The position numbers and the translations under genes are program-made. DNA of 64,000 nucleotides. Source: an uncultured Flavobacteriales bacterium (GTDB lineage Bacteria; Bacteroidota; Bacteroidia; Flavobacteriales_E; Vicingaceae). Positions 3,543-32,284 of this stretch are shown in pieces. The DNA lies in the NCBI GenBank assembly GCA_905479915.1, contig CAJQOH010000014.1, positions 62,001 through 126,000 of the forward strand, in the 5' to 3' direction. Within the stretch, counting starts at the first letter, position 1. The number at the start of each line of letters is the position of its first letter. Below the pieces are notes generated by a model that had not been told where the DNA came from, ran no database searches, and was given only the letters and a program-made list of their open reading frames with translations.

Positions 3543-3694
3543 TGCTTTAAGACCAGCTTTAAGGTTTGCATTAAAAACTAAAGTAGACAGTTTCTTGTTA
3601 ATGATAGAGTTAGACTCAATTGCTTTATTTAAATGATTGGCAACTGTATAAGTTGCTTTATCATTATCACTATCAATGTAATTTTGAGCAAATT

Positions 3695-13200: not shown

Positions 13201-13750
13201 TGAATTAGATGTAAACACGATAAACGATGTATTGTCAAGTCATGATTATGTACTTTCTAGAGACGGACAAGCTATTCAGTTTATGTATACAAATATTTAC
13301 CTGCCAGATAGTAGTGAGAATCAAGAGGCTAGTAACGGGTTTGTTGAATTTAAGATTAGTCCTAAATCCAATATTCAAAATGGAGATATTATTCCTAACA
13401 AAGCAGATATCATTTTTGACTTTGAAGACCCTCTTGCAACTAACAGGGTTCAGAATACAGTTAAATATAGTAAGGATGGTGTAATGAATAAATTAATCAT
13501 ACATCCAAATCCTGTACAAGACTTTACAACTTTAGTTTTAGAATTAGGTAAAGAAAAATACTTAAATTATGAGTTGATTAATAAAGTAGAAGTATATGAT
13601 ATAGTAGGTAAACGAATTGAATCTATTGACTACACATTAGGTGACCAAAGCATAATGTTGGATTGTAGCTATGTAGATAATGGAACTTATATAGTAAAAG
13701 TGTTTAATCAAGATGGTGAACAGTTTTCTGGAAAGCTAATAAAGGAATAA
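7226..13750 (+). CDS. Giant T9SS-exported surface protein with seven Ca-binding FG-GAP/VCBS repeats and an ASPIC/UnbV domain
   Basis: The 2174-residue protein starts with a signal peptide (MRNFTLTLILILSTLIGK). Residues about 25-1270 are Ser/Thr/Asn-rich beta modules of DUF11/conserved-repeat type. About 1275-1600 holds seven repeats with a W-x-D-(Y/F)-(D/N)-N-D-G-x-x-D-(L/V) core, as in calcium-binding FG-GAP/VCBS propellers. About 1620-1720 matches ASPIC/UnbV (IGARISV, IQWPSGYRQ). About 1720-1810 is a Cna-B/SdrD-like domain with GIVFNDINENCIQEAG. About 1950-2090 is the conserved beta domain often found just before sorting tails (KYKIRFQNVGT-like, DIIFDFEDPLATN). The last 80 residues form a type A T9SS sorting domain starting IIHPNPV. 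It probably acts as a cell-surface or released adhesin; ligand unknown. It is monocistronic. Confidence 0.9.
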   Translation: MRNFTLTLILILSTLIGKTQNLVNLSSTVIPEIIVCGDSENFQIKLKNDSSSTLSGISFTVQLPTGIAYVQGSVSEQSNYNVQEQNVSNNNALVFSANSLLGSDSIVFDIVTIANISAIAYQQAGNVFRNDVSVSYSSNQISHQSNAYNVLYAALSIINVSPTSQSVITGAAVSRNITIVNAGNGRLSEFKLTDLRNNTGVDLISSNLGTLNATLDTITLSASDFATIGNNDGYFNTNESITITQNLVASGCAANTVTSTIKTNWGCDGANRTSNNSYAHVSINLKNPNLSISSNESLSSCFASQNSAQEIVLKNNGQGYATNLSIDIYKSSGGSYDQDLFSAIDATSVTYQVGTGGTPVSAVVSAYTTRNDGVYSCLGNSPVGRVVVDLPIDIAPGQTVIIKWNSYHCCISECNNEKLMGWKYKVDYEDMCANNNYSSTKTGEGTTDLNMTIFTETPIDIDAGETLPFAYTISSHDNNLPVGTGANYEVVATLPLGLNWAGGANDFVWTSSPTNWTPSSVTFNSATRELVGVFLAPEPFNIQKSEIVVNLTGDCVGATSGYKTISLDINYVPDASCTSCKVPMVCNETTSTNLHCPIANCEGFNFLSFSAERINYGNPDNDANGLTDSNGALDFNKIKTNRVMVGDTLQTVYKVFVDTGANNNYFVNFFVEADIDFGQNLTVLDGSIQIYDDATAAYYTCTNFTTATVDGANDQRKFRYSFLPQYQCNTLPDAPLSNQFYFTHGDSIEFVVNYKVTGNIGGNVEEVTINNDLFTSALAAPWGADAAQLSGDKWGCDDYDGRFTLIGYYFTNSWASNYTVKSCARTVQQNFWFSIGDCCDNYGGGNLFPYEYRNWAHIKEVRVSIPTDYEVVQVYFRQRRTRTTNSTSTQTVNNIIPYHNSGGNMFFDLEQYYKAFGGSLEYSDDGFHGTVYLELAPTCDVVINTYEDINWEFQFAQTDYLGGGNSSWYTSNPDRIRYNPTNLVLSSNNPIVDGLGRTVSWNLNVSNNTSNSSAANSWLHFKNPSGDMELLHVIDDSNGDTLQLTSDYFAIGTINTNSTKSYTVVGSYSACAPDYLVAYAGYECSGYPLDFAHFYCSYSTFALNVEPKNAEPQVTITGTTIGNECSNLIEVTIEVASVKFAHLDSIEVDITAIGNSMTFVNGSGQLKYPLSGAFFTIVDPLSTPIGNTYQLMNINASLNENGLPGVLDLNNNRFQLKVQMNIENNFESGHYVKFSIRSKEVCGTLLPVINLAYDPSVQFNENTLAGLSNDASDSWGIAWGDYDNDGFDDLYVAEYGVNSGSFLYHNNGDGSFTKETSGIIVTDGGSSIAGTWGDYNNDGHLDLFVANNTGAMNALYKNTGGGNFVKITTGDVANYSGYCHGASWVDYNNDGYLDLFVTDYMETRFNLLYKNNGDETFTSISNSALTQEAKRSIGATWADYDNDGDMDVFVPATNGESNSLYRNDGADVFTKMTAVGILSDNSNSVGCSWGDFDNDNDLDLFVTNTSGQDNFFYINNGNGTFSQNTTGIITNDGGHSSSSNWVDFDNDGDVDLYVCNDQSDQNTMYINNGNGTFSKPESPLSEDLGNSYSQAWSDFDNDGDLDVLVGNHSNETNVFFENSRANCNSWLCLKLTGVNANRSAIGARISVKANIYGVDVWQLKEISAQTGGGAGSQNSLKTLFGLGNAAVVDSVIIQWPSGYRQELTNQNINDCIDLVEGDGVQVCGIVFNDINENCIQEAGELGIPGVLVKVEPGNRNLTTDANGSYQFFLEEGTYKVSQESTPNWTLNCNTSGYDLSIEAGQTYCGNDFGNTTSCLDPNLNVTLGTTALRKGFQNTYSVVLGNSGAYAAYDVNLTIEFHEDIVPLSASLPWTSVVQNDTTSTYTWVIDTLQAMTYNDISIIDSISVATTIGKELTVLATITDGGSDCDVLDNSVTDINPVVGAVDPNDLTVYPVGDGYQGYIEKTQELRYKIRFQNVGTYFAQNVKITNTLPDELDVNTINDVLSSHDYVLSRDGQAIQFMYTNIYLPDSSENQEASNGFVEFKISPKSNIQNGDIIPNKADIIFDFEDPLATNRVQNTVKYSKDGVMNKLIIHPNPVQDFTTLVLELGKEKYLNYELINKVEVYDIVGKRIESIDYTLGDQSIMLDCSYVDNGTYIVKVFNQDGEQFSGKLIKE

Positions 13751-13848: not shown

Positions 13849-13911
13849 CGTTTAAAACCACAGTCTGGCACATTATTGCATTAGTAATTGGTAAATCAAA
13901 AAGCCAGAACC

Positions 13912-16566
13912 ATGAAAAATTCTATACTATTAAGCGACTTATTGTTATTAACAAAACTATATGCACCTAAAAATGTTGCATTATTTGTTTTCGATCCTTT
14001 TGAAAGATTAACTATCGATGTTGATTTCCCATTAACAAAAGTGAATGAAAATTCATTTAAACTACTAGTAAACTTAGCTGATGAGATTATTTGCTACAAA
14101 GGAATGCAATTGTCAGAATTTGATCTAATTGTTGACTTTGGAAAAAGCAATATGCCTTCAGTTTTTTGTAAAAAAGAATTAAGCTACATCAACAGTCCAG
14201 AAAAAGGAATGCGTTGGGTATATGGAAACAAAAATAAGCAAGCCTCATTTTTAAACTTTTACAATACAGCAACAACAAGAGCAAAGGTGATTGCTAAATC
14301 TATAAAACTTGCATTTAGATTAGGCTTACAAAATTTAGTTCGCTCAGGAAGCTTTACAATTTATCATCAAAAAGAATTAAACATTTCTCCACTTATAAAT
14401 CAAATTAGACATACTGACTATTCTTTATTTATGGGAACACCTGGTCCAGACAGAACACTTTTACTAGAATTGAATAGTGAAGGAGAAACTACGCATTTCA
14501 TTAAAATACCTGCCAACAAAAAAAGTGCGATGGCCATTGTTAAAGAAGAGGTTAATATCCGTTTACTGAACAGTAAAAAATTCAAAACATTTAACACACC
14601 CAAAATCGCTTACAATAAATTTAAAGATGTTTTAATTATTAAGAATATCAGACCAAAAAATGCGAGTAGATCTAACACTATGTTACATTCTCACTTTATT
14701 GCTTTAAGCGAGGTGGCAAGGGAGACAACGCAGTTTTACCACTTAAAGAGTACAAATTATTGGGAAGTAGTAATGAATAATTTATCACAATTAAAAAAAG
14801 TTGGAAAGTATGCGAAGGTTGTAGGTCAAATAAATCAATTGAAAGATGAACTTAATGGAGTTAGAAGTGTTTATACATCATTGTCACATGGAGATTTTAC
14901 ACCTTGGAATATTTATGTTGGAAATGAAAAAATACACATTTATGATTTAGAACAAAGTAGTAATCAGATCCCATTATTAAACGATCTATTTCACTTTCAC
15001 TTTCAGTCTGGAATACTTTCTAAAAGAATACCAGTAAGTAAAATAAAAGAAAACATTAAAGAGGCCTGTAGCAATAAACAAATTGCTGAAATCATTAAAA
15101 CCTTTAAAATTGATATTGAACTTTATTTTAAACTATATCTATTAAAAGCAGCAGCAGTTAATGTAAAAGCATACCAACAACAAAGCAAGTTAAGTCTTCA
15201 ACATCAATGGTTACTTAGTGCATATGAAGAAATGTTATCAGAAATGTGTGCTTATAAAAATGAAAAGAAACACAGAAGTCTATTTGTAGAAGAGTTTAAC
15301 AATGAATTGAGTAGAACAGCTCATGCTTATTTAAAGTTCTCTGAAGGAAGTTTGGAAAACCTAAAAATGAGTTCAGATTTAGATATTCTAGTGCTAAAAG
15401 AAGATCTACCAAAAATGATTAGGTTTTGTAAATACCACTCAAATGTAAAGAGGGTTAAAGTATATACTAAATCGTTTATGACCACAGCTGAACTTTACTT
15501 TAACGACAACACATTCTTAAGTTTAGATTTGATACATCAGTTTAAGCGCAAAGATATACAGTTGTTTGATGCAAGGCCATTACTGGTTTCAGCTATGCCT
15601 AATTCAAGTGGAATAATGGTGCCAGATATAAAGTATGATTTTGAATATTGCCTATTGTTTTACACATTAAACGGGGCATCAATCCCTAAAAAATATCAAG
15701 GTCATTATAAAACGCTAAATCAAACTCAAAACAACAAGGTGTTCAATTACATTGATAAAAAGTATCAATTAAAAATAAATAACAACAATGAATTATTTGC
15801 ATTCAACCCTTATTTGAGACTTAGAATTTTATCCAAGGTAGAAGGTTTAAATCTAAACAGTAAATTAAGCAAGCTTAAGAATAAAGTCAACTATGCATTG
15901 GATACTTTGAATGATATGATATATCGAAGAGGAGTTGTTATCACATTTAGTGGGGTAGATGGTGCAGGAAAAACAACCATTATTGGTAAAGTAAAAAATA
16001 GGTTAGAATCTAAATATAGAAAAGAGGTTGTTTTATTAAGACACAGACCAGGTATATTGCCAATACTAAGTGCTATAAAGCATGGTAAAGAAGCTGCGGA
16101 ACAAATAGCATCCGTTACCATGCCTAGAAAAGGCAAAAACAATAGCACAATGTCAAGCCTGGTGCGTTTTGGTTACTATTTTGCAGACTATGTAATAGGA
16201 CAGATTTACGTATATTTTAAGTATGTGCTACGAGGCAAGATAGTATTATACGATCGTTATTATTTTGATTTTATCAATGATGCTAAACGTTCTAATATAC
16301 AATTGAATAGAAGTTTCTTAAAAGCCCTATACAGGTTTGTATTTAAGCCAAAAATGAATTTCTTTTTATATGCTGATGCTGAAACCATTTTAGCTCGAAA
16401 AAAAGAAATGATTGCACCAGAAATTGATCAACTAACAATTCTTTATAAAAACCTGTTTGGACAAATGAACAGGCAGTATAAAAGCAGTCATTATACCATT
16501 ATTGAGAATAAAGAATTAGATGTAACCCTTAATACAATTATGAACACTTATGCAAAACTAGCATAA
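13912..16566 (+). CDS. Three-domain fusion: APH-like kinase, minimal nucleotidyltransferase-like, thymidylate-kinase-like P-loop
   Basis: I start at the ATG at 13912 (MKNSILLSDL, 884 aa); an upstream in-frame start at 13888 is possible. The N-terminal half has an aminoglycoside-phosphotransferase-like catalytic loop, HGDFTPWN near residue 325, followed by YDLEQ as the DFG equivalent. Around 480-490 the pattern G-S-x8-SDLDILVL resembles the G-S...D-x-D core of minimal nucleotidyltransferases. The last 210 residues contain GVDGAGKTT near 680 and a DRYYFDF motif, as in thymidylate-kinase-like P-loop kinases. Proteins with such parts occur in capsule and exopolysaccharide loci, but the substrate is unknown. 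It is the first gene of a five-gene plus-strand operon (next start 19 bp away). Confidence 0.8.
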   Translation: MKNSILLSDLLLLTKLYAPKNVALFVFDPFERLTIDVDFPLTKVNENSFKLLVNLADEIICYKGMQLSEFDLIVDFGKSNMPSVFCKKELSYINSPEKGMRWVYGNKNKQASFLNFYNTATTRAKVIAKSIKLAFRLGLQNLVRSGSFTIYHQKELNISPLINQIRHTDYSLFMGTPGPDRTLLLELNSEGETTHFIKIPANKKSAMAIVKEEVNIRLLNSKKFKTFNTPKIAYNKFKDVLIIKNIRPKNASRSNTMLHSHFIALSEVARETTQFYHLKSTNYWEVVMNNLSQLKKVGKYAKVVGQINQLKDELNGVRSVYTSLSHGDFTPWNIYVGNEKIHIYDLEQSSNQIPLLNDLFHFHFQSGILSKRIPVSKIKENIKEACSNKQIAEIIKTFKIDIELYFKLYLLKAAAVNVKAYQQQSKLSLQHQWLLSAYEEMLSEMCAYKNEKKHRSLFVEEFNNELSRTAHAYLKFSEGSLENLKMSSDLDILVLKEDLPKMIRFCKYHSNVKRVKVYTKSFMTTAELYFNDNTFLSLDLIHQFKRKDIQLFDARPLLVSAMPNSSGIMVPDIKYDFEYCLLFYTLNGASIPKKYQGHYKTLNQTQNNKVFNYIDKKYQLKINNNNELFAFNPYLRLRILSKVEGLNLNSKLSKLKNKVNYALDTLNDMIYRRGVVITFSGVDGAGKTTIIGKVKNRLESKYRKEVVLLRHRPGILPILSAIKHGKEAAEQIASVTMPRKGKNNSTMSSLVRFGYYFADYVIGQIYVYFKYVLRGKIVLYDRYYFDFINDAKRSNIQLNRSFLKALYRFVFKPKMNFFLYADAETILARKKEMIAPEIDQLTILYKNLFGQMNRQYKSSHYTIIENKELDVTLNTIMNTYAKLA

Positions 16567-21886: not shown

Positions 21887-23308
21887 TTATGCTTTCTTGG
21901 TCAGTTTTCTTATTAAACCTCGAAAGATAAATCCATGAAAGGGTAGGACAGCATACCAATAGAGCCTGCCTAACAAACCTAAAGGTCTAAATGTGGCTGT
22001 TTGGATTAAGGAGTCATCCTCAATTTTAAATTCTAGCCATGCCTCACCTGGTAGTTTCATTTCCGCAAAAAGCAACAATCTACCTTCTTCTTTATTGGCA
22101 TAAAGTACTCTCCAAAAGTCCAATGAATCTCCAGTTGATATAGAAGTCTGATTAGTTCTTCCTCTTCTCAACCCAACACCTCCAACTAGTTTATCTAAAA
22201 ATCCACGAACCCTCCAAAGCCAATTGCCATAATACCACCCTTGTTTACCACCTACAGACCATATTTTTTCAATGGTACGCTCATGATTTACAATACTACT
22301 TGCTCTTTTATCTGTAAAACATCCAAAAGAAGGAACCTCAATAAAGCTAGAAATATTCATGTTTAACCCACTGCTCGAATGAGAATCTTTCCAGCTAGAA
22401 ACGATTTCATTTTTTTCAATCTTATTAAAAGCATCTATAAGAGTTTGTTTATATGGAATAGGGGTGATGCCTAATATTTTATTGATATCATTGTTTCTAC
22501 AAACTACCTCTACTTTCATACTATCAACTAAAGACCTTGCGAGCTTATAAGATGTAGAAGTTACAAAATAAAGCCAATAAGAAGATAGTCTAGGAGTCAT
22601 AACAGGAACTGTTATTATTTTTCGTTTTAAGCCTCTAATTTCAGCAAAAGAAAGTAACATTTCTTTATAGGAAAGCACATTGTTCGAGCCAATATCAAAA
22701 TTTTTATCAAACATTTTTTCATTGAGGATGGATTCAATAAGAAACCTCTGAACATCCATTATACCAATAGGTTGGCATTTAGTAAGTAACCATTTTGGAG
22801 TAATCATAATTGGTAATTTCTCAACCAAATCACGCATTATTTCAAATGAAGCACTACCTGATCCTATAATAATTCCGGCCCTAAGACAGGTAAAAGCGTA
22901 ATCTCCTTTTTCCAGCTCCTCTTCAACTCTTTTTCGAGAAAGTAGATGTTTGGATAGGTTTGTTTCATTAATGATACCACTTAAATAGATAACTTGTTTA
23001 GCATTGGTTAACCCTATCTTTTCTCGAAAGTTTATTGCAGACTTTTCTTCTAAAGATTTATAATTATCTGATGAAGACATTGAATGCACTAAATAGAATG
23101 CAACATCAATATCATTGGGGATTTTTGAAAGAGAAGTTGAGTTGAGTAAATCAACTTCTAGAACAGTGATGTTTTTGATTAATGATTTATCTGGATTAAA
23201 TCTAGATTTATCTCGAACACAACATACTACATGATGTCCATTATTAACTAACAATGGAAGGATTCGTTTACCAATATAACCTGTTGCTCCTGTTAATAGT
23301 ATTTTCAT
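21887..23308 (-). CDS. SDR-family NAD(P)-binding protein with C-terminal DUF2867 domain
   Basis: The N-terminus MKILLTGATGYIGKRILPLL is an atypical-SDR Rossmann fold with the G-x-x-G-x-x-G motif, like NmrA/YbjT proteins. Residues about 290-473 match DUF2867, with WYYGNWLWRVRGFLDKLVGG and RGRTNQ. SDR-DUF2867 fusions are common next to photolyase and B12-MerR genes in marine Bacteroidota, but their reaction is unknown. Its upstream region carries one copy of the GTTTAA-N16-TTAAAC palindrome that also marks the carotenoid operon, so I infer light-dependent control. The gene is monocistronic. Confidence 0.85.
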   Translation of the reverse strand: MKILLTGATGYIGKRILPLLVNNGHHVVCCVRDKSRFNPDKSLIKNITVLEVDLLNSTSLSKIPNDIDVAFYLVHSMSSSDNYKSLEEKSAINFREKIGLTNAKQVIYLSGIINETNLSKHLLSRKRVEEELEKGDYAFTCLRAGIIIGSGSASFEIMRDLVEKLPIMITPKWLLTKCQPIGIMDVQRFLIESILNEKMFDKNFDIGSNNVLSYKEMLLSFAEIRGLKRKIITVPVMTPRLSSYWLYFVTSTSYKLARSLVDSMKVEVVCRNNDINKILGITPIPYKQTLIDAFNKIEKNEIVSSWKDSHSSSGLNMNISSFIEVPSFGCFTDKRASSIVNHERTIEKIWSVGGKQGWYYGNWLWRVRGFLDKLVGGVGLRRGRTNQTSISTGDSLDFWRVLYANKEEGRLLLFAEMKLPGEAWLEFKIEDDSLIQTATFRPLGLLGRLYWYAVLPFHGFIFRGLIRKLTKKA

Positions 23309-23324
23309 TTACGACACTTATTAT

Positions 23325-23352
23325 GTTTAAATATATAAAAATAAAGTTAAAC
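23325..23352. promoter_or_regulatory. Putative CarH-type operator A, upstream of the SDR-DUF2867 gene
   Basis: The perfect inverted repeat GTTTAA (23325-23330), 16 bp, TTAAAC (23347-23352) lies 17-44 bp upstream of the SDR start codon. The same hexamers with the same spacing occur in front of three other transcription units here. A further single GTTTAA half-site is at 23392-23397. Confidence 0.65.
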
Positions 23353-23649
23353 ATAATATGCAAAGCATTACAGTTTTGATGTATAATTATTGTTTAAAGT
23401 AAGTCATTTTTTGACATGTACTAATAGCTGTAAATAAAGCCCAAACAAATATGGCACAGAAGGAGAATGGTGTTTAGTGCATCCTTTATTGATGTTTGAA
23501 ACGTGTGGAGGTGTTTTTGTACATAAATGTCTTTAATAAAATTTTATAATAATCATAGTCTTTTTAATTGATGGCAAAAAATAGTATAATATTTTTTTAA
23601 ATATATGTATCAGGTAATCAGGTGTTAAGTTGTTTTTTTTAAATGTTTT

Positions 23650-23677
23650 GTTTAATAAAATACATTAAAACTTAAAC
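23650..23677. promoter_or_regulatory. Putative CarH-type operator C1, upstream of the DUF4397/T9SS gene
   Basis: A perfect GTTTAA-N16-TTAAAC inverted repeat, 63 bp upstream of the start codon. It forms a tandem pair with operator C2; the two centres are 44 bp apart, about four helix turns, which would suit a dimer-of-dimers regulator. The rest of the 430-bp gap from 23309 holds operator A and no gene that I can see. Confidence 0.6.
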
Positions 23678-23693
23678 ATTGTGAAAATATTTT

Positions 23694-23721
23694 GTTTATG
23701 TTTGCAGTGTAAAACTTAAAC
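23694..23721. promoter_or_regulatory. Putative CarH-type operator C2 overlapping a TAnnTTTG promoter element
   Basis: GTTTAT-N16-TTAAAC (one mismatch to the consensus) lies 18 bp before the start codon. A perfect Bacteroidota -7 element TATGTTTG at 23697-23704 lies inside it, so a bound regulator would cover the promoter and start site. I saw no clear -33 element at the usual distance. Confidence 0.55.
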
Positions 23722-23739
23722 AAAATAAAAATTTTAATT

Positions 23740-25458
23740 ATGAAAAAACTATTCTTATTCGCTGTAATTGGTGTATTCTCAATTTCAGCTAACGCGCAAA
23801 CTGCAAGACTACAAGCAATCCACAATTCGGCTGATGCAGCAGCTGACACTGTTGATGTATGGCTAACAACGTCATCAGGATCAAGTAAGCTTATAGATGA
23901 TTTTACTTTTAGAAGTGCATCACCATTTATTAATGCTCCAGCTGGGTCACCGATTACAATAGGAATAGCTGGTAAAAACAGCACAGTGATAGGTGATACA
24001 ATTGCAGGGTTATCTTTTGATTTTAATCTTACAGCAACCGAAACATACATTTTAGTTGCTGAAGGTATTGTTAGTGCTTCAGGATACTCTCCAGCTACAC
24101 CATTTGACATTGAATTATATGCATTGGGGCAGGAAGCATCAAATACTATGGGTAATACCGATGTTTTAGTTCATCATGGTGTTACTGATGCTCCAACTGT
24201 TGATATTTATGAAGCATCAGCTGGTATACTAGTAGATAATGCTGCTTACACGAATTTTTCTGCTTACATCCCATTAGCAACACTTGATTATGATCTGGAG
24301 GTTAGGGATGGCTCTGGTTCAACCATATTAAAAGCTTATGATGCTCCTTTGGCAACATTGAACTTAACGAGCCAAGCTATAGTTGTTTTAGCTTCAGGCT
24401 TTTTAAACCCAGACAATAACAGTAGCGGACCTGCTTTTGGATTATATGCTGCTCTTGCTTCAGGAGGGCCGCTGGTAGCATTGCCTGAAAAAACAGCTAA
24501 AGTTCAAGCCATTCACAATTCCGCTGATGCCGCTACTGATACGGTGGATGTTTATATGACAACTGCACTAGGATCAAGTTTATTGGTAGATGATTTTGCT
24601 TTTAGAAGTGCAACACCATTTATTGATGCGCCAGCTGGAGGAGTTGAATTTACCTTATCTTTTGCTGGGAAAAATAGTTCTTCAATAAATGATACAATAG
24701 TAGGTTTGTCATTTAGCTATTCTTTAATAGCAGATGAAAAATATATTTTAGTTGCAGATGGAATTGTAAGTTCTGCAGGGTATTCTCCAGCTACACCATT
24801 CTCTATTGAAGTATATGCTATGGGGCAGGACTCAGCAATGTTGGCAGGTAATACAGATGTTCTTGTTCATCATGGATCTACAGATGCTCCAGATGTTGAT
24901 GTTGATGAAGTAACCGCAGGAAACTTAGTAAATAATGCTTCGTATACAGATTTTGCAGGTTATTTACCATTAGCAACAGCTGACTACCAATTATTGGTAA
25001 AAGACTCATCTGGAACAACAACTGTTGCTAGTTTTGATGCACCTTTAGCAACATTAAATCTAGATGATTTAGCTTTAGTTGTAGTTGCATCTGGTTTTTT
25101 AAATCCAGCAAACAATTCTGGCGGTTCGGCATTTGGTCTTTTTGTAGCACTTCCTAGTGGAGGGGATTTAGTTGAATTACCAGCCTCAACAACTACTGGT
25201 TTAGATGAAAATACTATTGATAGGTTAGCTCTAAAACTATATCCTAATCCAGTAAATGACTTTTTAACTATAGGAGACATTAATCTTAATTCAGTGAATA
25301 TTGCAATAGTTGATGCAGTAGGTAGGCAAATTCAAAATGGACTGTTTAATGTTAGCAATAATTCAATAAATGTTGCTAAAATTTCTCAAGGGAGCTACTA
25401 TATAATTATATCTAATGATATAGAAATTATAGGGCGCTCTAAATTTATAAAACATTAA
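23740..25458 (+). CDS. Secreted twin-DUF4397 protein with T9SS sorting domain
   Basis: The 572-residue protein has a signal peptide (MKKLFLFAVIGVFSISANA). Two homologous modules of about 220 residues follow: one from about 20, starting ARLQAIHNSADAAADTVDV, and one from about 250, starting KVQAIHNSADAATDTVDV. Each contains an FRSA(S/T)PFI(N/D)APAG segment, a VGLSF-type strand and a DVLVHHG(V/S)TDAP segment, matching the DUF4397 family. The last 80 residues (from LKLYPNPVNDF) are a type A sorting domain for the type IX secretion system, so it should reach the cell surface. Its function is unknown. Two tandem palindromes of the carotenoid-operon type precede it. A strong terminator follows, so it is monocistronic. 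Confidence 0.88.
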   Translation: MKKLFLFAVIGVFSISANAQTARLQAIHNSADAAADTVDVWLTTSSGSSKLIDDFTFRSASPFINAPAGSPITIGIAGKNSTVIGDTIAGLSFDFNLTATETYILVAEGIVSASGYSPATPFDIELYALGQEASNTMGNTDVLVHHGVTDAPTVDIYEASAGILVDNAAYTNFSAYIPLATLDYDLEVRDGSGSTILKAYDAPLATLNLTSQAIVVLASGFLNPDNNSSGPAFGLYAALASGGPLVALPEKTAKVQAIHNSADAATDTVDVYMTTALGSSLLVDDFAFRSATPFIDAPAGGVEFTLSFAGKNSSSINDTIVGLSFSYSLIADEKYILVADGIVSSAGYSPATPFSIEVYAMGQDSAMLAGNTDVLVHHGSTDAPDVDVDEVTAGNLVNNASYTDFAGYLPLATADYQLLVKDSSGTTTVASFDAPLATLNLDDLALVVVASGFLNPANNSGGSAFGLFVALPSGGDLVELPASTTTGLDENTIDRLALKLYPNPVNDFLTIGDINLNSVNIAIVDAVGRQIQNGLFNVSNNSINVAKISQGSYYIIISNDIEIIGRSKFIKH

Positions 25459-25774: not shown

Positions 25775-26659
25775 TTAGATTTTAATTAAACTTTTAAATG
25801 CTTCAAAACTGACAATTGATTTTTGATTGCCGGATAAATTAAGCTTATTAGAAATCTCATTAGAACAACATAAGTACAAGGGTGGACTATTAAATGCTTT
25901 AGTCAAAGTATCAAAATATTTTGTAATAACATCATGACGAGTATTCCTTACCAAAAAAGTTAAATAATGGGTTGGAGAGCTTTGGTGGGAAGTTTGTTGT
26001 AAATTTTCCAATGGAACATTTGCTCCAAGGTATATCACTTTTTTACCTTTAGATCTTAAGCTATAATTTGCAATCAATAAGCCTAAATCATGCTGTTCAC
26101 CTTCAGGTAGAAATAATAACCAATTCTCCGATTTATCAGAGGGTGGAGCTAAAGCATCAATTGCTGCAAATATCTTTTGTTTTATTAAGTTGGTAACAAA
26201 ATGCTCTTGTGCCGGATTAAGTTTTGTGGTTGTCCACAATAAGCCAATCTTGATCAGCATAGGGTAGAATACTTTTTCATAAGCATTCATTAGTCCAAAA
26301 CTTAAAATAGAACTAGAAAATGCTTTTTCAAATGTTGCTTCATCATAAGATAAACCCGCACTAACCATCTGATTGATAAGAGCCTCTTCTCTAGCACTAA
26401 TCTCTCCATCATTTGTTAAAGAGGTAATTTTAGCATTAATTTCATCATTAGTTAATTTACCAATTGTAGAAATCTTATCTCCTGAATTTATCAAAGAAAC
26501 AACATTAAGAAGTTTTCTTAATTGCTCATCATCATAATACCTTATGTTGGTTTCAGTTCTTAGTGGTGTCAATAATTTATAGCGTTGCTCCCAAATTCGA
26601 ATTGTATGAGATTTTACTCCAGAGAGTTTTTCTAAATCAGAAATTTTATATCTACTCAT
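25775..26659 (-). CDS. CarH/LitR-like MerR regulator with cobalamin-binding domain (predicted B12 photoreceptor)
   Basis: I start at the ATG at 26659 (MSRYKISDLEKLSGVKSHTI, 294 aa), where the MerR helix-turn-helix begins at once; an upstream start at 26734 would add 25 unlikely residues. Residues 1-75 are the MerR domain (TIRIWEQRY). About 90-165 is the helical cap of methionine-synthase-type B12 domains, with W142 and E152-H153 in the W-x9-EH pattern that senses light in CarH. About 178-290 is the B12 fold with the lower-ligand motif EGEQHDLG (H190). In CarH, adenosylcobalamin in the dark makes a DNA-binding tetramer that light breaks apart. It is divergent from the carotenoid operon and probably represses both it and itself. 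Confidence 0.9.
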   Translation of the reverse strand: MSRYKISDLEKLSGVKSHTIRIWEQRYKLLTPLRTETNIRYYDDEQLRKLLNVVSLINSGDKISTIGKLTNDEINAKITSLTNDGEISAREEALINQMVSAGLSYDEATFEKAFSSSILSFGLMNAYEKVFYPMLIKIGLLWTTTKLNPAQEHFVTNLIKQKIFAAIDALAPPSDKSENWLLFLPEGEQHDLGLLIANYSLRSKGKKVIYLGANVPLENLQQTSHQSSPTHYLTFLVRNTRHDVITKYFDTLTKAFNSPPLYLCCSNEISNKLNLSGNQKSIVSFEAFKSLIKI

Positions 26660-26662
26660 AGT

Positions 26663-26690
26663 GTTTAATAAATCACAAATATAATTAAAC
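26663..26690. promoter_or_regulatory. Putative CarH-type operator D with embedded promoter of the MerR gene
   Basis: A perfect GTTTAA-N16-TTAAAC repeat begins 3 bp upstream of the regulator's start codon. On the minus strand its spacer holds a perfect -7 element TATATTTG (positions 26676-26683). This arrangement suggests autoregulation. Confidence 0.6.
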
Positions 26691-26817
26691 ATAATTAATT
26701 GGCGCATTTTTTGTTGAAAACATATGATATCCATATATGATACAGTTGTTTATTATTAGAATAGGCTTGTGATTATTTTTTGAAATCATAATGTTTATAT
26801 TTTATTAATATAAAAAT

Positions 26818-26845
26818 GTTTAAGATAAATTCAAATAAGTAAAAC
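26818..26845. promoter_or_regulatory. Putative CarH-type operator B1, distal copy at the carotenoid operon
   Basis: GTTTAA-N16-TAAAAC (one mismatch in the right half) lies upstream of the operon's -7 element. Its centre is 43 bp from that of operator B2, nearly the same pairing distance as operators C1 and C2. Confidence 0.5.
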
Positions 26846-26853
26846 AAAATACT

Positions 26854-26861
26854 TACATTTG
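26854..26861 (+). promoter_or_regulatory. -7 promoter element of the carotenoid operon
   Basis: TACATTTG matches the Bacteroidota -7 consensus TAnnTTTG exactly. It abuts operator B2, sharing its first G, so transcription would start within the operator. Confidence 0.55.
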
Positions 26862-26888
26862 TTTAATGTTTTAATAAAAAAGTTAAAC
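26861..26888. promoter_or_regulatory. Putative CarH-type operator B2, proximal copy at the carotenoid operon
   Basis: A perfect GTTTAA-N16-TTAAAC inverted repeat lies between the -7 element and the ATG at 26892. A bound repressor here would block initiation of the whole SOUL-crt-gpx operon. Confidence 0.65.
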
Positions 26889-26891
26889 GAA

Positions 26892-27482
26892 ATGAATCTA
26901 ACACTAATAATTATAAGCGCTGTAATGACTATTGGATTATTTAGTCAATACAAAACAAATAAGATGGTTCAGGAAACGGAGAAGCCTAAATATGAATTAA
27001 TTCAGAGCTTTGACGAATTTGAAGTGAGAAAATACCCAAAAATGATTTTAGCCACAACTAAAATAAAAGGCAATAGTTATTCTAAAAACTCAAGTAGAGG
27101 ATTTCAAAATGTAGCAGGCTATATTTTTGGTGGTAATGATGAGAACAAACAAATAAGCATGACATCTCCAGTTATTGCTTCTGTAGAAGACTCTATGACC
27201 ATGAGCTTTATACTTCCTTCAGAATACAGTCTAAATGAACTTCCGCTTCCTAACAACGATAATGTGAAAATTTCAATACAACCAGAACGAGTAATGGCCA
27301 TAATCAGTTTTAGTGGTTTTGCCAATGACAATGACATAGAGCATTACACAAAAATTCTAAAACAACAATTAGCTAAAGAAGGTCTGTCTAATAAAGGAAA
27401 AGTATTTTTTCAAGGTTACGACCCGCCTTTTAAATTAACAGACAGAACAAACGAAGTTGCAATCGAATTGTTAAGCTTATGA
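26892..27482 (+). CDS. SOUL/HBP-family heme-binding-like protein
   Basis: I choose the ATG at 26892 (MNLTLIIISAVMTIGLFSQ); a TTG start at 26859 would place coding sequence inside the operator. The 196-residue product has an N-terminal hydrophobic segment, so it is membrane-anchored or exported. It then has a SOUL domain: KYELIQSFDEFEVRKYP at its start, SMTSPVIA in the middle and a final FQGYDPPFKLTDRTNEVAIEL. SOUL proteins bind heme or related tetrapyrroles, and their role in bacteria is poorly known. It is the first gene of the carotenoid operon and its TGA stop overlaps the crtI ATG. A role in photo-oxidative protection is inference from context. Confidence 0.85.
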   Translation: MNLTLIIISAVMTIGLFSQYKTNKMVQETEKPKYELIQSFDEFEVRKYPKMILATTKIKGNSYSKNSSRGFQNVAGYIFGGNDENKQISMTSPVIASVEDSMTMSFILPSEYSLNELPLPNNDNVKISIQPERVMAIISFSGFANDNDIEHYTKILKQQLAKEGLSNKGKVFFQGYDPPFKLTDRTNEVAIELLSL

Positions 27483-28975
27483 ATAATAAAAAAATAGCTA
27501 TTATTGGTTCTGGGTTTTCAGGATTATCTGCTGCAGCCTACCTTGCAAAGGAAGGGCATGATGTTCAGGTATTTGAAAAAAATGATTGTCTTGGTGGTAG
27601 AGCTAGAAAATTTGAAGTTGATGGTTTCAGTTTTGATATGGGACCAAGCTGGTATTGGATGCCAGAAGTAATGGAGGCATTTTTTAATGATTTTGGAAGT
27701 AGTGTCAATAACCATTTTGAGTTGAAAAAACTATCACCTGCATTCAACATTATATTCAAGGAAAATGATAAAGTATCAATTCCAAACGATTACAATGAAT
27801 TAAAAAAACTATTTGAATCAATTGAAAAGGGCAGCTCCAATGTATTGGATAAGTTTATGAAAGATGCTCAAAAGAAATATGACATAAGTTTTGCCAACCT
27901 AATAGAAAAGCCAGGCCTTTCTATCAAAGAATATCTCGATTACGAAACAATAAAATCAGCTATAAACCTTAGTCTATTTGGATCTTACCAAAAAATGGTA
28001 CACAAACAATTTAAGCATCCTAAATTACGTGCTTTAATGGAGTTTCCTGTATTGTTTTTGGGGGCAAAACCAGAAAACACTCCATCATTATATAGCTTAA
28101 TGAATTATGCAGGTCTCAAATTGGGAACATACTACCCAATGGGAGGGTTTTATTCGCTAGTTGAAGCAATGATAAATATTTGTAAACAGCAAGGTGTTAC
28201 ATTTCATAAAAACTCAACCATTAGCAAGATAAATGTTTCCAACAATCAAGCATCATCAATTCAGGTTAATGGAGATTTAGTTAAAGTTGATGGTATTGTT
28301 GGTAGCGCAGATTATAATCATGTAGAAAAGTTACTCGAAAAAGAGTATAGAAACTATTCCGAAAAGTACTGGGAAAAGAAAACTTTTGCCCCTTCCAGTT
28401 TAATATTTTACTTAGGAATCAATAAAAAGATAAAGAACTTAGAACATCATACTTTGTTTTTTGATACTGATTTTGAACAGCACGCAACAGAAATATACGA
28501 TACTAAAAAATGGCCTGAAAAGCCTCTATTTTATGTTTGTACACCTTCTAAAACTGACCCTACAGTAGCTCCCAGAAATGGTGAAAACCTATTCTTTTTA
28601 ATGCCACTAGCAACAGGTATTGAAGATACAAACGAATTAAGAGAAAAATATTTTTCTACCTTATTGAATAGACTTGAAAGTCATCTTGGAGAAAAAATTA
28701 CAGACCATATTGTGGTTAAAAAATCATATTGTATTAAAGATTTTGAAAAGGATTACAATGCCTTTGGTGGAAATGCCTATGGGCTAGCAAATACTTTGGA
28801 TCAAACAGCCATTTTTAAGCCAAAAATAATCAACAAGAAAATTAAAAATTTAATCTATACAGGACAATTAACTGTTCCTGGACCTGGAGTACCACCTTCA
28901 ATTATTTCAGGTAAAATATCAGCAAAATTATTATGTCAAACCCTAAAACAACAACCACATGAAATCACTATTTGA
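27479..28975 (+). CDS. crtI: Phytoene desaturase CrtI
   Basis: The 498-residue flavoprotein begins with a Rossmann FAD motif, KKIAIIGSGFSGLSAAAYLA, then EKNDCLGGRARKFEVDGFSF. It ends with the carotenoid-desaturase signature YTGQLTVPGPGVPPSIISG. It converts phytoene to lycopene by successive desaturations at the membrane. The length fits bacterial CrtI (about 490-510). It overlaps the SOUL gene by 4 bp (ATGA) and crtB by 17 bp, which shows tight translational coupling. Confidence 0.95.
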   Translation: MNNKKIAIIGSGFSGLSAAAYLAKEGHDVQVFEKNDCLGGRARKFEVDGFSFDMGPSWYWMPEVMEAFFNDFGSSVNNHFELKKLSPAFNIIFKENDKVSIPNDYNELKKLFESIEKGSSNVLDKFMKDAQKKYDISFANLIEKPGLSIKEYLDYETIKSAINLSLFGSYQKMVHKQFKHPKLRALMEFPVLFLGAKPENTPSLYSLMNYAGLKLGTYYPMGGFYSLVEAMINICKQQGVTFHKNSTISKINVSNNQASSIQVNGDLVKVDGIVGSADYNHVEKLLEKEYRNYSEKYWEKKTFAPSSLIFYLGINKKIKNLEHHTLFFDTDFEQHATEIYDTKKWPEKPLFYVCTPSKTDPTVAPRNGENLFFLMPLATGIEDTNELREKYFSTLLNRLESHLGEKITDHIVVKKSYCIKDFEKDYNAFGGNAYGLANTLDQTAIFKPKIINKKIKNLIYTGQLTVPGPGVPPSIISGKISAKLLCQTLKQQPHEITI

Positions 28976-29795
28976 TGACCTTTCCGCACAATGTTCAAAA
29001 AGAACAACTCAATTGTATAGCACTAGTTTTTCGTTGGGTATAAAATTGCTACACCAATCATTGCATCGGCCAATATATGGTATTTATGGATTTGTAAGAT
29101 TTGCAGATGAAATAGTAGATAGCTTCCATGGATACAATAAAGAAGAATTACTCTACGAGTTTAGAAACGATACTTACAAAGCTATTCACAACGGAATTAG
29201 TCTCAATCCTATCTTAAATGAATTTCAAAAAGTGGTCAACGAATACAGTATTGATCATGAATGGATAGATACTTTTTTAAAGAGTATGAAAATGGATTTG
29301 AACGATAAGTATCATGATATTTTGTCGTACCAAGATTATATTTTGGGATCGGCAGAAGTAGTCGGCTTAATGTGTTTACATGTATTTGTTGAGGGGGATA
29401 AATCAAAATTTAATGAGCTAAAGCCATATGCCATGAGTTTAGGTTCTGCTTTTCAAAAAGTAAATTTCTTAAGAGATCTAAAGGATGATTACGAGGCTCT
29501 TGGTCGCACTTATTTTCCTGATATAGATATGGAGTCTTTTAGCACAGAACACAAGCTACAAATAGAAAGAGAAATTAGTGAAGATTTTAAAATGGCTTTG
29601 ATAGGTATCAAAAAATTACCACGTAAATCAAGAAAAGGAGTCTATCTCGCATATGTATACTATTTGCAGTTGTTTATAAAAATCAAACAAACACCAGTAG
29701 AAAAAATTATGGAGTCAAGAATCCGAGTTCCAAACATTTCAAAACTGGGGCTAATGTTTAAATCAATTGTTCAACACCAGCTCAATTTACTTTAG
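28959..29795 (+). CDS. crtB: Phytoene synthase CrtB
   Basis: The 278-residue protein is a squalene/phytoene synthase. The first Asp-rich motif is FVRFADEIVD; the second is FLRDLKDDYEALGRTYFP. It condenses two geranylgeranyl diphosphates to phytoene. The start ATG lies inside the crtI 3' end. It is the first committed enzyme of the C40 carotenoid pathway and is followed after 57 bp by idi, which supplies the C5 precursor. Confidence 0.95.
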   Translation: MKSLFDDLSAQCSKRTTQLYSTSFSLGIKLLHQSLHRPIYGIYGFVRFADEIVDSFHGYNKEELLYEFRNDTYKAIHNGISLNPILNEFQKVVNEYSIDHEWIDTFLKSMKMDLNDKYHDILSYQDYILGSAEVVGLMCLHVFVEGDKSKFNELKPYAMSLGSAFQKVNFLRDLKDDYEALGRTYFPDIDMESFSTEHKLQIEREISEDFKMALIGIKKLPRKSRKGVYLAYVYYLQLFIKIKQTPVEKIMESRIRVPNISKLGLMFKSIVQHQLNLL

Positions 29796-29852
29796 TCAAT
29801 TGAATTAAAAAATTAAAAAGTACTTGTTAATTACATCTAAAATAGATCAATT

Positions 29853-30395
29853 ATGGAAAATGAAAATGTTGTTTTAGTAGACCCTCAAGATAATGAAATA
29901 GGGGTCATGGAGAAAATGGAGGCACATAAAAAAGGGTTGTTGCACCGGGCTTTTTCAGTATTTATTTTCAATTCAAAAGGAGAAGTTCTTTTGCAAAAAA
30001 GAAGTAGTGAGAAATATCATTCAGGAGGGCTTTGGTCAAATACATGTTGTAGCCATCCTAGGCCTGGAGAAGGTCTTTCTTCCGCAACCAACAGAAGGCT
30101 TATGGAAGAAATGGGAATGAGCACTACCTTGTTTCCTGCATTTTCATTTCAATACAAATCCAATCTTGATCACAACATGATAGAAAATGAATTAGATCAC
30201 GTATACATTGGCTATTCAAATGATACTCCAGAGCCTAATTCTGAAGAAGTGGAAGGATATTGTTACATGCCTCCAGAAATTCTACTAATGGGGTTTGAGA
30301 AACATCCTGAGGAATACACCGCATGGTTAAAAATATGTTTTAAAGAATTAATGAATTATATCAACCAAAACGATACACATGAAAAAGTCAATTAA
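29853..30395 (+). CDS. idi: Isopentenyl-diphosphate delta-isomerase, type I
   Basis: The 180-residue Nudix-fold enzyme has the type I IDI motifs: HRAFSVFIFN at the start of the fold, the catalytic Cys in NTCCSHPRPGE, and the metal-binding glutamates in RRLMEEMGM. It interconverts isopentenyl and dimethylallyl diphosphate and so feeds carotenoid synthesis. Its 3' end overlaps a short ORF by 17 bp. Confidence 0.95.
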   Translation: MENENVVLVDPQDNEIGVMEKMEAHKKGLLHRAFSVFIFNSKGEVLLQKRSSEKYHSGGLWSNTCCSHPRPGEGLSSATNRRLMEEMGMSTTLFPAFSFQYKSNLDHNMIENELDHVYIGYSNDTPEPNSEEVEGYCYMPPEILLMGFEKHPEEYTAWLKICFKELMNYINQNDTHEKVN

Positions 30396-30522
30396 AAAAA
30401 TAGTAACAAAAACAAAAAACTTTAAAGTTAGAATTGATCACAGAACAATAATCACAGTGAGAACAAAAGAAGCCCTAAAATATTGGTTAACAGAATATCC
30501 ACAAGCTCAAGTGTTGTCATAA
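30379..30522 (+). CDS. Small basic 47-residue protein between idi and crtZ
   Basis: An ATG inside the idi 3' end opens a 47-codon frame (MKKSIKKIVTKTKNFKVRID, ending YPQAQVLS). The product is rich in Lys and Arg, with the segment RTIITVRTKEALKYWL, and has no signal or membrane segment. The 17-bp overlap copies the crtI-crtB arrangement, which supports real translation. I do not recognise a family. Confidence 0.5.
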   Translation: MKKSIKKIVTKTKNFKVRIDHRTIITVRTKEALKYWLTEYPQAQVLS

Positions 30523-30545
30523 TTAAAGTAATTTGAGAAGAATTT

Positions 30546-30553
30546 TACCTTTG
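30546..30553 (+). promoter_or_regulatory. Candidate internal -7 promoter element before crtZ
   Basis: TACCTTTG matches TAnnTTTG, 37 bp upstream of the crtZ start, in the only long intergenic gap within the second half of the operon. No convincing -33 element was seen. Confidence 0.3.
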
Positions 30554-30590
30554 TTCTAGTTGTTAGGAATATTTAGAATTAACATTTTAA

Positions 30591-31040
30591 ATGGAAGTAT
30601 TAATTAATAGTAGTATTGTTATTGCCACATTTCTTTTAATGGAAGGGGTAGCTTGGTTAAGTCATAAATATTTGATGCATGGTTTACTATGGTTTTTTCA
30701 TGAAGATCATCACCAACACAATACCAATATAGACCCTTTTGAGCGAAATGATTTTTTCTTTTTACTCTTTGCAACCCCTGGAATTTCATTCCTTTACTTT
30801 GGGCTAAACAATTTTTCTTTTCTATTCTGGGTTGGTCTGGGCATTACCTTGTATGGATTTGCATATTTTATCATACATGATGTATTTATTCATCGAAGAT
30901 TAAAGTATTTAAGAAATATTGATTCCGCTTATTTTAGAGCAATTAGAAGGGCGCACAAAGCACATCATAAACATTTTCACAAAGAAGATGGAGAGTGCTT
31001 TGGAATGTTATGGGTTCCATTAAAGTATTTTAAAAAGTAA
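30591..31040 (+). CDS. crtZ: Beta-carotene hydroxylase CrtZ
   Basis: The 149-residue membrane protein belongs to the non-heme di-iron fatty acid hydroxylase superfamily. It has His clusters HKYLMH, HEDHH, HDVFIH and HKAHHKHFH, which bind the iron pair. It adds 3-hydroxyl groups to the beta-ionone rings, giving zeaxanthin from beta-carotene. The next gene, the cyclase, starts 2 bp later. The operon therefore predicts a zeaxanthin-type yellow pigment. Confidence 0.93.
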   Translation: MEVLINSSIVIATFLLMEGVAWLSHKYLMHGLLWFFHEDHHQHNTNIDPFERNDFFFLLFATPGISFLYFGLNNFSFLFWVGLGITLYGFAYFIIHDVFIHRRLKYLRNIDSAYFRAIRRAHKAHHKHFHKEDGECFGMLWVPLKYFKK

Positions 31041-31042
31041 AA

Positions 31043-31738
31043 ATGGATAAATACACCTACATCTTAGTTAATTTAGGGTCTATTATTATTCCTTTTCTTT
31101 TCTCCTTTCACCCAAAACTTAATTTTAATAAAAAATGGAAGTCAACCATCTTATCCATTGTTATTGTTGCCATTCCTTTTATTGCTTGGGATATTGTTTA
31201 CACTGGCATGGGAATTTGGGGTTTTAACCCCAATTACCTTCTTGGTATCTCTATTTTTAATCTACCTCTAGAGGAACTTCTGTTTTTTATTTGTATTCCT
31301 TACGCTTGTCTTTATACATATCATTCTCTTAACGTATTAATTCCTTCTTTCACTTTTCCATACTTTAAAACTGCATTGATCTTACTCCTTTCAATTCTAT
31401 TAAGCTTTGCAATTCTTTTTATAGACAGATGGTATACTGGCGTTACCTTTGTACTATTGTTTATTGCATTAATATTTTTTGAATTTATACATTCTACCAA
31501 ATGGTTAAAAAGGGCCTGCTTTGCTTCCCTTATATTGATCTTGCCATTTTTTGTTGTAAATGGAATTCTTACAGGTACAGGAATTGAAACAGAAGTTGTT
31601 TGGTACAACAACAATGAAAATATTGGATTTAGAATCCTTACAATCCCTATAGAAGATTTTGCTTATGGATTTTTACTTATAATCTTAAACATTCACTTTT
31701 TTGAAAAATTTAACCATTTAAATAAAAACAATAACTAA
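31043..31738 (+). CDS. Lycopene beta-cyclase of the CrtYcd type
   Basis: The 231-residue protein has about six to seven membrane helices and two halves, each with the lycopene cyclase domain motif: LPLEELLFF in the first and IPIEDFAYGF in the second. This is the fused CrtYc-CrtYd form found in Bacteroidota and related to fungal and archaeal cyclases. It closes both ends of lycopene to beta-carotene. It lies 2 bp after crtZ and 15 bp before the peroxidase gene. Confidence 0.92.
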   Translation: MDKYTYILVNLGSIIIPFLFSFHPKLNFNKKWKSTILSIVIVAIPFIAWDIVYTGMGIWGFNPNYLLGISIFNLPLEELLFFICIPYACLYTYHSLNVLIPSFTFPYFKTALILLLSILLSFAILFIDRWYTGVTFVLLFIALIFFEFIHSTKWLKRACFASLILILPFFVVNGILTGTGIETEVVWYNNNENIGFRILTIPIEDFAYGFLLIILNIHFFEKFNHLNKNNN

Positions 31739-31753
31739 CTAAATATCAATATT

Positions 31754-32284
31754 ATGAAATACATTTTAACATTAATTACATTAATCACTATGAGTTCAAT
31801 TTCTGCACAAACCTCTTCAATTTACGACATTAAAATCAACAGTTTAGTTGGGGAAAAAATAGACTTAAAAAAATACAAAGGAAAGCACATTTTAATTGTT
31901 AACGTTGCCTCAAAATGTGGATTCACCTCTCAATATAAAGAGCTTCAAGAGCTGCATGAAAAATACAAAGAGAAGCTTGTCATTATTGGTGTTCCTTGCA
32001 ATCAATTTGGAAAACAAGAACCAGGAAGTGCAGCAGAAATTCAATCTTTTTGTAAAAAGAACTACGGAGTAGAATTTCTAATTACTGAAAAAGTAGAGGT
32101 AAAGGGAGATAATCAACATCCATTATATAGTTGGCTTACCTCAAAAGACATTAATGGTATTAGTTCCAGTAGCGTTAAATGGAATTTTCAAAAATATATG
32201 ATTGATACTGAAGGGAATTATCTAGACGTGTTCTATAGTGCCACCAAACCAAATAGCAATAAAATAATTAAATTTTTGGAGTAG
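31754..32284 (+). CDS. Exported glutathione-peroxidase-family thiol peroxidase
   Basis: The 176-residue protein carries a signal peptide (MKYILTLITLITMSSISAQ) and a GPx fold. It has a peroxidatic Cys in NVASKCGFTSQY, the Gln in PCNQFGKQEP and the Trp in VKWNFQKY. The Cys replaces selenocysteine, and such enzymes usually use thioredoxin-like reductants to reduce peroxides. It is the last gene of the carotenoid operon, 15 bp after the cyclase. This suggests defence against light-generated peroxides in the periplasm. No clear hairpin terminator follows. Confidence 0.9.
   Translation: MKYILTLITLITMSSISAQTSSIYDIKINSLVGEKIDLKKYKGKHILIVNVASKCGFTSQYKELQELHEKYKEKLVIIGVPCNQFGKQEPGSAAEIQSFCKKNYGVEFLITEKVEVKGDNQHPLYSWLTSKDINGISSSSVKWNFQKYMIDTEGNYLDVFYSATKPNSNKIIKFLE

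Follow-up and report, generated by a model that had tools for sequence, protein, structure and literature searches.

A type IX-secreted twin-DUF4397 protein gene is a probable member of a CarH light regulon in Bacteroidota

The window analysed here, 64,000 nucleotides of contig CAJQOH010000014.1 from an uncultured Flavobacteriales bacterium (Vicingaceae), contains a gene for a surface protein secreted by the type IX secretion system (T9SS). It lies beside a carH-like regulator gene and a carotenoid operon, and these genes share a palindromic site that we call the operator:

21887–23308, minus strand: gene for an NAD(P)-binding SDR–DUF2867 fusion, with operator (profile match; an orthologue lies near an operator in locus L233)
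23324–23353, unstranded: operator upstream of the SDR/DUF2867 gene, exact
23649–23678, unstranded: operator 1 of the surface-protein gene, TGTTTAA-N16-TTAAACA, 0 mismatches
23693–23722, unstranded: second operator of the surface-protein gene, with one mismatch; 14/14 arm positions unchanged in the six copies of the genus
23697–23704, plus strand: putative −7 element TATGTTTG within operator 2, invariant in six genus copies
23740–25458, plus strand: T9SS-secreted twin-DUF4397 surface-protein gene (572 aa: a signal peptide, then two units of 231 aa and a type A sorting tail)
23797–24489, plus strand: DUF4397 unit 1 (profile search)
24490–25191, plus strand: DUF4397 unit 2, 66% identical to unit 1
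25192–25458, plus strand: linker and T9SS type A C-terminal sorting domain (PF18962)
25775–26659, minus strand: carH-like MerR/cobalamin-binding regulator gene (conserved start 26659)
26662–26691, unstranded: operator just upstream of carH, exact, containing the −7-like TATATTTG (26676–26683, minus strand)
26817–26846, unstranded: first operator of the carotenoid operon, with one mismatch
26860–26889, unstranded: second operator of the carotenoid operon, with one mismatch; its left arm overlaps the −7-like TACATTTG (26854–26861)
26893–32284, plus strand: putative light-regulon operon (SOUL haem-binding, crtI, crtB, idi, 149-aa ORF, lycopene cyclase, glutathione peroxidase)

The carH ORF is listed as 25775–26734, which sets the start 75 bp too early and extends the ORF into the carH operator; for the SOUL gene the likeliest start is ATG 26893, not TTG 26859. 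The 149-aa ORF matched no family in profile searches and is a probable CrtZ-type protein.

Profile searches bore out the sequence-only reading of a T9SS-secreted protein with two tandem DUF4397 modules. Like other DUF4397 proteins with T9SS type A tails, the 23740–25458 product exceeds the curated cut-offs for both domain and tail: DUF4397 (PF14344) over the whole protein (E 1.6e-21; 77.5 bits against a gathering score of 30.6), Por_Secre_tail (PF18962, E 1.8e-10 to 8e-12), and TIGR04183 (E 1e-7). Its N-terminus is signal-like (MKKLFLFAVIGVFSISANAQ), a signal peptide called by eye, and the two 231-aa units are identical at 152 of 230 residues. The structure prediction proposed earlier for the DUF4397 pair was run and gave an all-beta model (pLDDT 80) in which each unit comprises about two beta-sandwich domains.

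A sequence search of the unit against solved structures found no relative. The unit-sized structural matches were the two-domain Ig-like ectodomains of PepT1 and PepT2, with TMt 0.67 for the PepT2 ectodomain (5a9h); at 10% sequence identity, this two-domain beta-sandwich likeness, held in common with other Ig-like surface modules, is one of fold only and implies no functional link. Weaker matches were to surface and adhesin proteins, and no enzymatic fold was among the structure matches. A viral fold search returned pithovirus DUF4397 proteins, which shows like folding of the unit and nothing more. Relatives carry from 1 to about 6 units. The modelled product most probably belongs with Ig-like surface scaffolds or adhesins; a role in adhesion or shading is a guess that we hold tentatively.

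The operator palindrome TGTTTAA-N16-TTAAACA occurs twice upstream of the surface-protein gene, 44 bp apart from start to start, and twice upstream of the carotenoid operon, 43 bp apart. With at most one mismatch in each site, the earlier claim that the two transcription units share the same paired operators holds. The 3.57-Mb genome contains four exact copies, against about 0.24 expected from composition and none of the reversed pattern. All four lie upstream of genes: three in the 3.4-kb cluster of the window and one on a different contig, where a DNA photolyase/cryptochrome gene (PF00875, PF03441) starts 7 bp away. The exact site upstream of carH, with its −7-like element, points to putative carH autoregulation. 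At three mismatches the window has 34 sites, not clearly above shuffled sequence (mean 25.9, largest 39), so only near-exact sites carry weight. One-mismatch sites elsewhere in the genome lie mostly within coding sequence and were not accepted as regulon members.

The gene is present in 5 of 14 genomes of the genus (G000, G008, G009, G012, and G013; six copies, proteins 59–70% identical to that of the window), and carH in 6. Loss of the operators in close relatives that keep the gene would have spoken against the sequence-only reading; instead the pair is kept at 6/6 genus copies, one contig beginning within the first operator, and an operator at the gene in 10 of the 12 gene-bearing genomes of the family. 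When the six copies are aligned on operator 2, the 14 arm and 8 TATGTTTG positions are identical while the flanking DNA varies. In G012 the surface-protein gene is directly followed by a photolyase gene that bears an exact operator of its own. In G013 the module is duplicated: the genome contains three carH-like genes together with two DUF4397 genes that bear the operator, one three-unit and one one-unit (L119, L122; C115, C23).

Across the 46 family genomes, carH is found in 31, including all 12 with the surface-protein gene (12/12 vs. 19/34 other genomes, Fisher p 0.004). Outside the genus the gene lies far from carH, and an exact operator stands at its start in 5 of 7 genomes (G029, G038, G039, G040, and G042); the exceptions are G031, with a two-mismatch site, and G027, with no operator at its DUF4397 gene. 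Exact operators number 63 in the 31 carH-positive genomes vs. 5 in the 15 carH-negative ones, and the reversed pattern gives 5 matches in all 46. Exact family sites within ORFs (G021 C26, G024, G044) were taken as chance.

The signal extends through the phylum. Among 78 named Bacteroidota loci, 72 had readable upstream DNA, and within 250 bp upstream of the homologue an exact operator was found at 35/72 and one with at most one mismatch at 50/72. Upstream regions of other ORFs in Bacteroidota loci contained an operator in 25 of 816 cases. Exact sites reach a density of 1.79/kb upstream of the gene vs. 0.011/kb elsewhere in these loci, about 158-fold (binomial tail for operator enrichment <1e-60, loci treated as independent), and the enrichment exists at a spacer of 16 only, other spacers abolishing it. 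Operator pairs stand 42–45 bp apart in most lineages, and several Flavobacteriaceae have them at 86 bp; this spacing suggests helical phasing.

At 22/72 loci a near-consensus site is absent. Variants occur at some of these, for example TGTTCAA-N16-TTGAACA (L133, next to carH) or a spacer of 17, and G027, L117, L126, L148, L155, and L161 have neither operator nor variant. In 22 carH-negative genomes encoding DUF4397-unit proteins, many of them GC-richer, no site was found within three mismatches; such a site is present in carH-positive G321 and missing from G291, whose only carH is a distant one. DUF4397 proteins that are lipoproteins or multidomain (L121, L123–L125, L136, L174), or that occur in carH-negative genomes, likewise lack the operator, which is found in the carH-tied lineage. 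Co-occurrence with carH alone (46/50 gene-bearing genomes) is weak because the base rate in the class sample is already 57/74, and it was dropped as the main evidence.

The further claim that an operator covers the −7 element was upheld within the genus, where the element is conserved, but it does not generalize. Over 50 loci a strict TAnnTTTG overlapped the operator in 12 cases vs. 8 random windows, not above control outside the genus, and loci differ in where the operator stands with respect to the start codon and any −7 match. An operator that always covers the −7 element was therefore rejected as a general rule.

Exact operators in the family also lie upstream of carH, crtI, photolyase, SRPBCC, glutathione peroxidase, SDR/DUF2867, and 6-pyruvoyl-tetrahydropterin synthase genes. 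Carotenoid, photolyase, and SDR-type genes are co-regulated in the LitR/CarH regulons of other bacteria, as here. Two proteorhodopsin genes (PF01036; L241:2390–3213 and L246:1304–2126) have an exact operator upstream, which places the light-driven pump under putative CarH control; a rhodopsin search of the window genome gave no match, and the search's control likewise gave no signal. Fasciclin-domain lipoproteins with an exact operator upstream (L230, L245, L249), G027 being among the genomes that have one, are a second class of surface protein. Since photolyase, proteorhodopsin, crt, and carH genes share the same site, the regulon is light-related, and with photolyase and rhodopsin among the targets, light is much the likeliest signal.

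Exact operators also occur near 6-pyruvoyl-tetrahydropterin synthase and GTP cyclohydrolase I genes (L254:2279–2757, L243:1682–2149, L232, L236:8745–9571), perhaps for the supply of a pterin or folate antenna to photolyase. In many family genomes outside the window's genus, an exact operator is found upstream of an ECF sigma gene (L229, L231, L242, L244, L247, L250, L218–L221). Most operator-bearing ECF genes of the family stand beside carH, suggesting a possible CarH-to-ECF relay; the window has no ECF gene there.

The 25775–26659 product contains a MerR DNA-binding domain (PF13411, E 1.2e-14) and a cobalamin-binding domain. The Wx9EH cap motif (WTTTKLNPAQEH) is present in 44/45 homologues, and the ExHxxG ligand motif reads EQHDLG in the window protein, the axial-ligand His being invariant in 30. 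The GG of the distal SxV/T...GG motif is found in 7/45 homologues and is missing from the window protein, and the distal Rossmann half of the homologues is poorly conserved. Given the absent GG and an NCBIfam CarH equivalog score of 96 against a cut-off of 400, we call the regulator CarH-like. Its model (pLDDT 88.5) has Thermus CarH as the best PDB match in Foldseek (5c8d, E 2.9e-17), with TMt up to 0.85 for the cobalamin domain, and the genome encodes a cobalamin adenosyltransferase. The regulator has the CarH cobalamin signature and fold.

Characterized CarH proteins are bound to DNA in the dark, where they repress, and are released by light; their operators are 11-bp direct repeats, nAnnTnnACAn (PMC8156234). 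Compared by eye, the arm nAnnTTAAACA fits this element in most sites, but inverted, which makes the present arrangement a variant of the known direct-repeat operators. The window regulator shares with CarH of Thermus thermophilus and Bacillus megaterium, B12 photoreceptor repressors of carotenoid genes, the MerR and cobalamin domains, Wx9EH, the axial His, the fold, the crt neighbourhood, and an nAnnTnnACAn-like half-site. It differs from them in that the Bacteroidota operator is an inverted repeat around a 16-bp spacer and often occurs in pairs (43 or 86 bp apart), that the GG motif is mostly lost in Bacteroidota homologues, and that the targets include surface proteins and, in relatives, proteorhodopsin. 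Class II LitR has also been described (PMC9758184). The literature searched contained no CarH operator for Bacteroidota and, among LitR/CarH regulons, no secreted DUF4397 or fasciclin surface protein as a target.

On the established domain make-up, operators, conservation, co-regulon, and CarH signature residues, together with the predicted CarH fold, we consider the surface-protein gene likely to be a core member of a CarH (adenosylcobalamin, AdoCbl) light regulon, with dark repression lifted by light. Binding, dark repression, and light release at these operators are proposed by analogy with CarH biochemistry elsewhere. In the dark, AdoCbl-loaded CarH would occupy the two inverted-repeat operators, four helical turns apart, one of them over the −7 element, blocking transcription. 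Light would break the Co–C bond and take the CarH oligomer off the DNA, and the gene would be transcribed along with those for carotenoids, photolyase, and, in some relatives, proteorhodopsin. After Sec export the product would pass through the outer membrane via the type IX system and be anchored to the cell surface as a string of Ig-like domains (1–6 units in relatives), a coat most likely adhesive or scaffolding that could help light-exposed cells aggregate or shade. That a B12-photoreceptor regulon remodels the surface in this way across the phylum, CarH displacement leading to DUF4397 strings and some fasciclin lipoproteins and so to aggregation or shading, is possible but rather doubtful.

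Several other explanations of the operators were weighed. CarH might use these sites while sensing redox state or an isoprenoid, or act independently of B12 like Myxococcus CarA, so that the protein follows stress. The loss of the cobalamin-motif GG in most homologues, the poorly conserved distal Rossmann half, and the co-regulated glutathione peroxidase and SOUL genes would fit, but photolyase and proteorhodopsin are in the regulon, the axial His is invariant, and Wx9EH, which sets CarH apart from the B12-independent CarA (PMC8156234), is present in 44/45 homologues; we regard this as unlikely. Rather less probable still is that CarH is a MerR-type activator whose two operators raise transcription in one light state. 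MerR-family palindromes often activate from inside the promoter, and at the surface-protein gene the −7 element lies between operator arms; yet the operators vary in position relative to start codons and −7 matches, and characterized CarH proteins repress in the dark (PMC8156234).

The palindrome could instead be read by another factor, such as the ECF sigma encoded beside carH in relatives, with carH a mere fellow target. The site does stand upstream of that ECF gene in many family genomes, but the window lacks such a gene at carH, the sites track carH presence across genomes, the half-site fits the CarH element nAnnTnnACAn, and palindromes suit a MerR dimer, making this very improbable. Chance AT-rich repeats might be invoked in a window of 32% GC, where three-mismatch matches are about as frequent as in shuffles; this is refuted by spacer-specific, 158-fold enrichment, invariance in relatives, and absence of the operator beside homologues in carH-negative genomes, leaving it a negligible probability.

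Under the preferred reading of a CarH light regulon, marine and other Bacteroidota appear to co-express a secreted beads-on-a-string surface protein with pigments, photolyase, and rhodopsin through sites that track a B12 light sensor, suggesting that the cell exterior, too, responds to light. DUF4397, a domain of unknown function, would gain a physiological setting, light; the operator gives the B12 photoreceptors of this phylum a binding site that can be put to the test; one regulon would join such a photoreceptor to the genes for carotenoids, photolyase, and proteorhodopsin; and a surface response to light is predicted in abundant marine bacteria. Literature searches found no light–dark transcriptome that names DUF4397, and the open-access papers found to mention it do not concern light. 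In Chryseobacterium lacus the crt genes are light-induced, yet the authors found no car/lit genes (PMC7064467).

Elsewhere in the window, a SpoIIE/GAF phosphatase-like protein adjoins a protein kinase with an AAA domain (585–5764, minus strand). Positions 7226–13750 encode a 2174-aa T9SS protein with FG-GAP, UnbV_ASPIC, SdrD_B, DUF11, and DUF7619 domains, and 13888–16566 an 892-aa protein with a C-terminal thymidylate-kinase-like domain, alongside glycosyltransferase genes.
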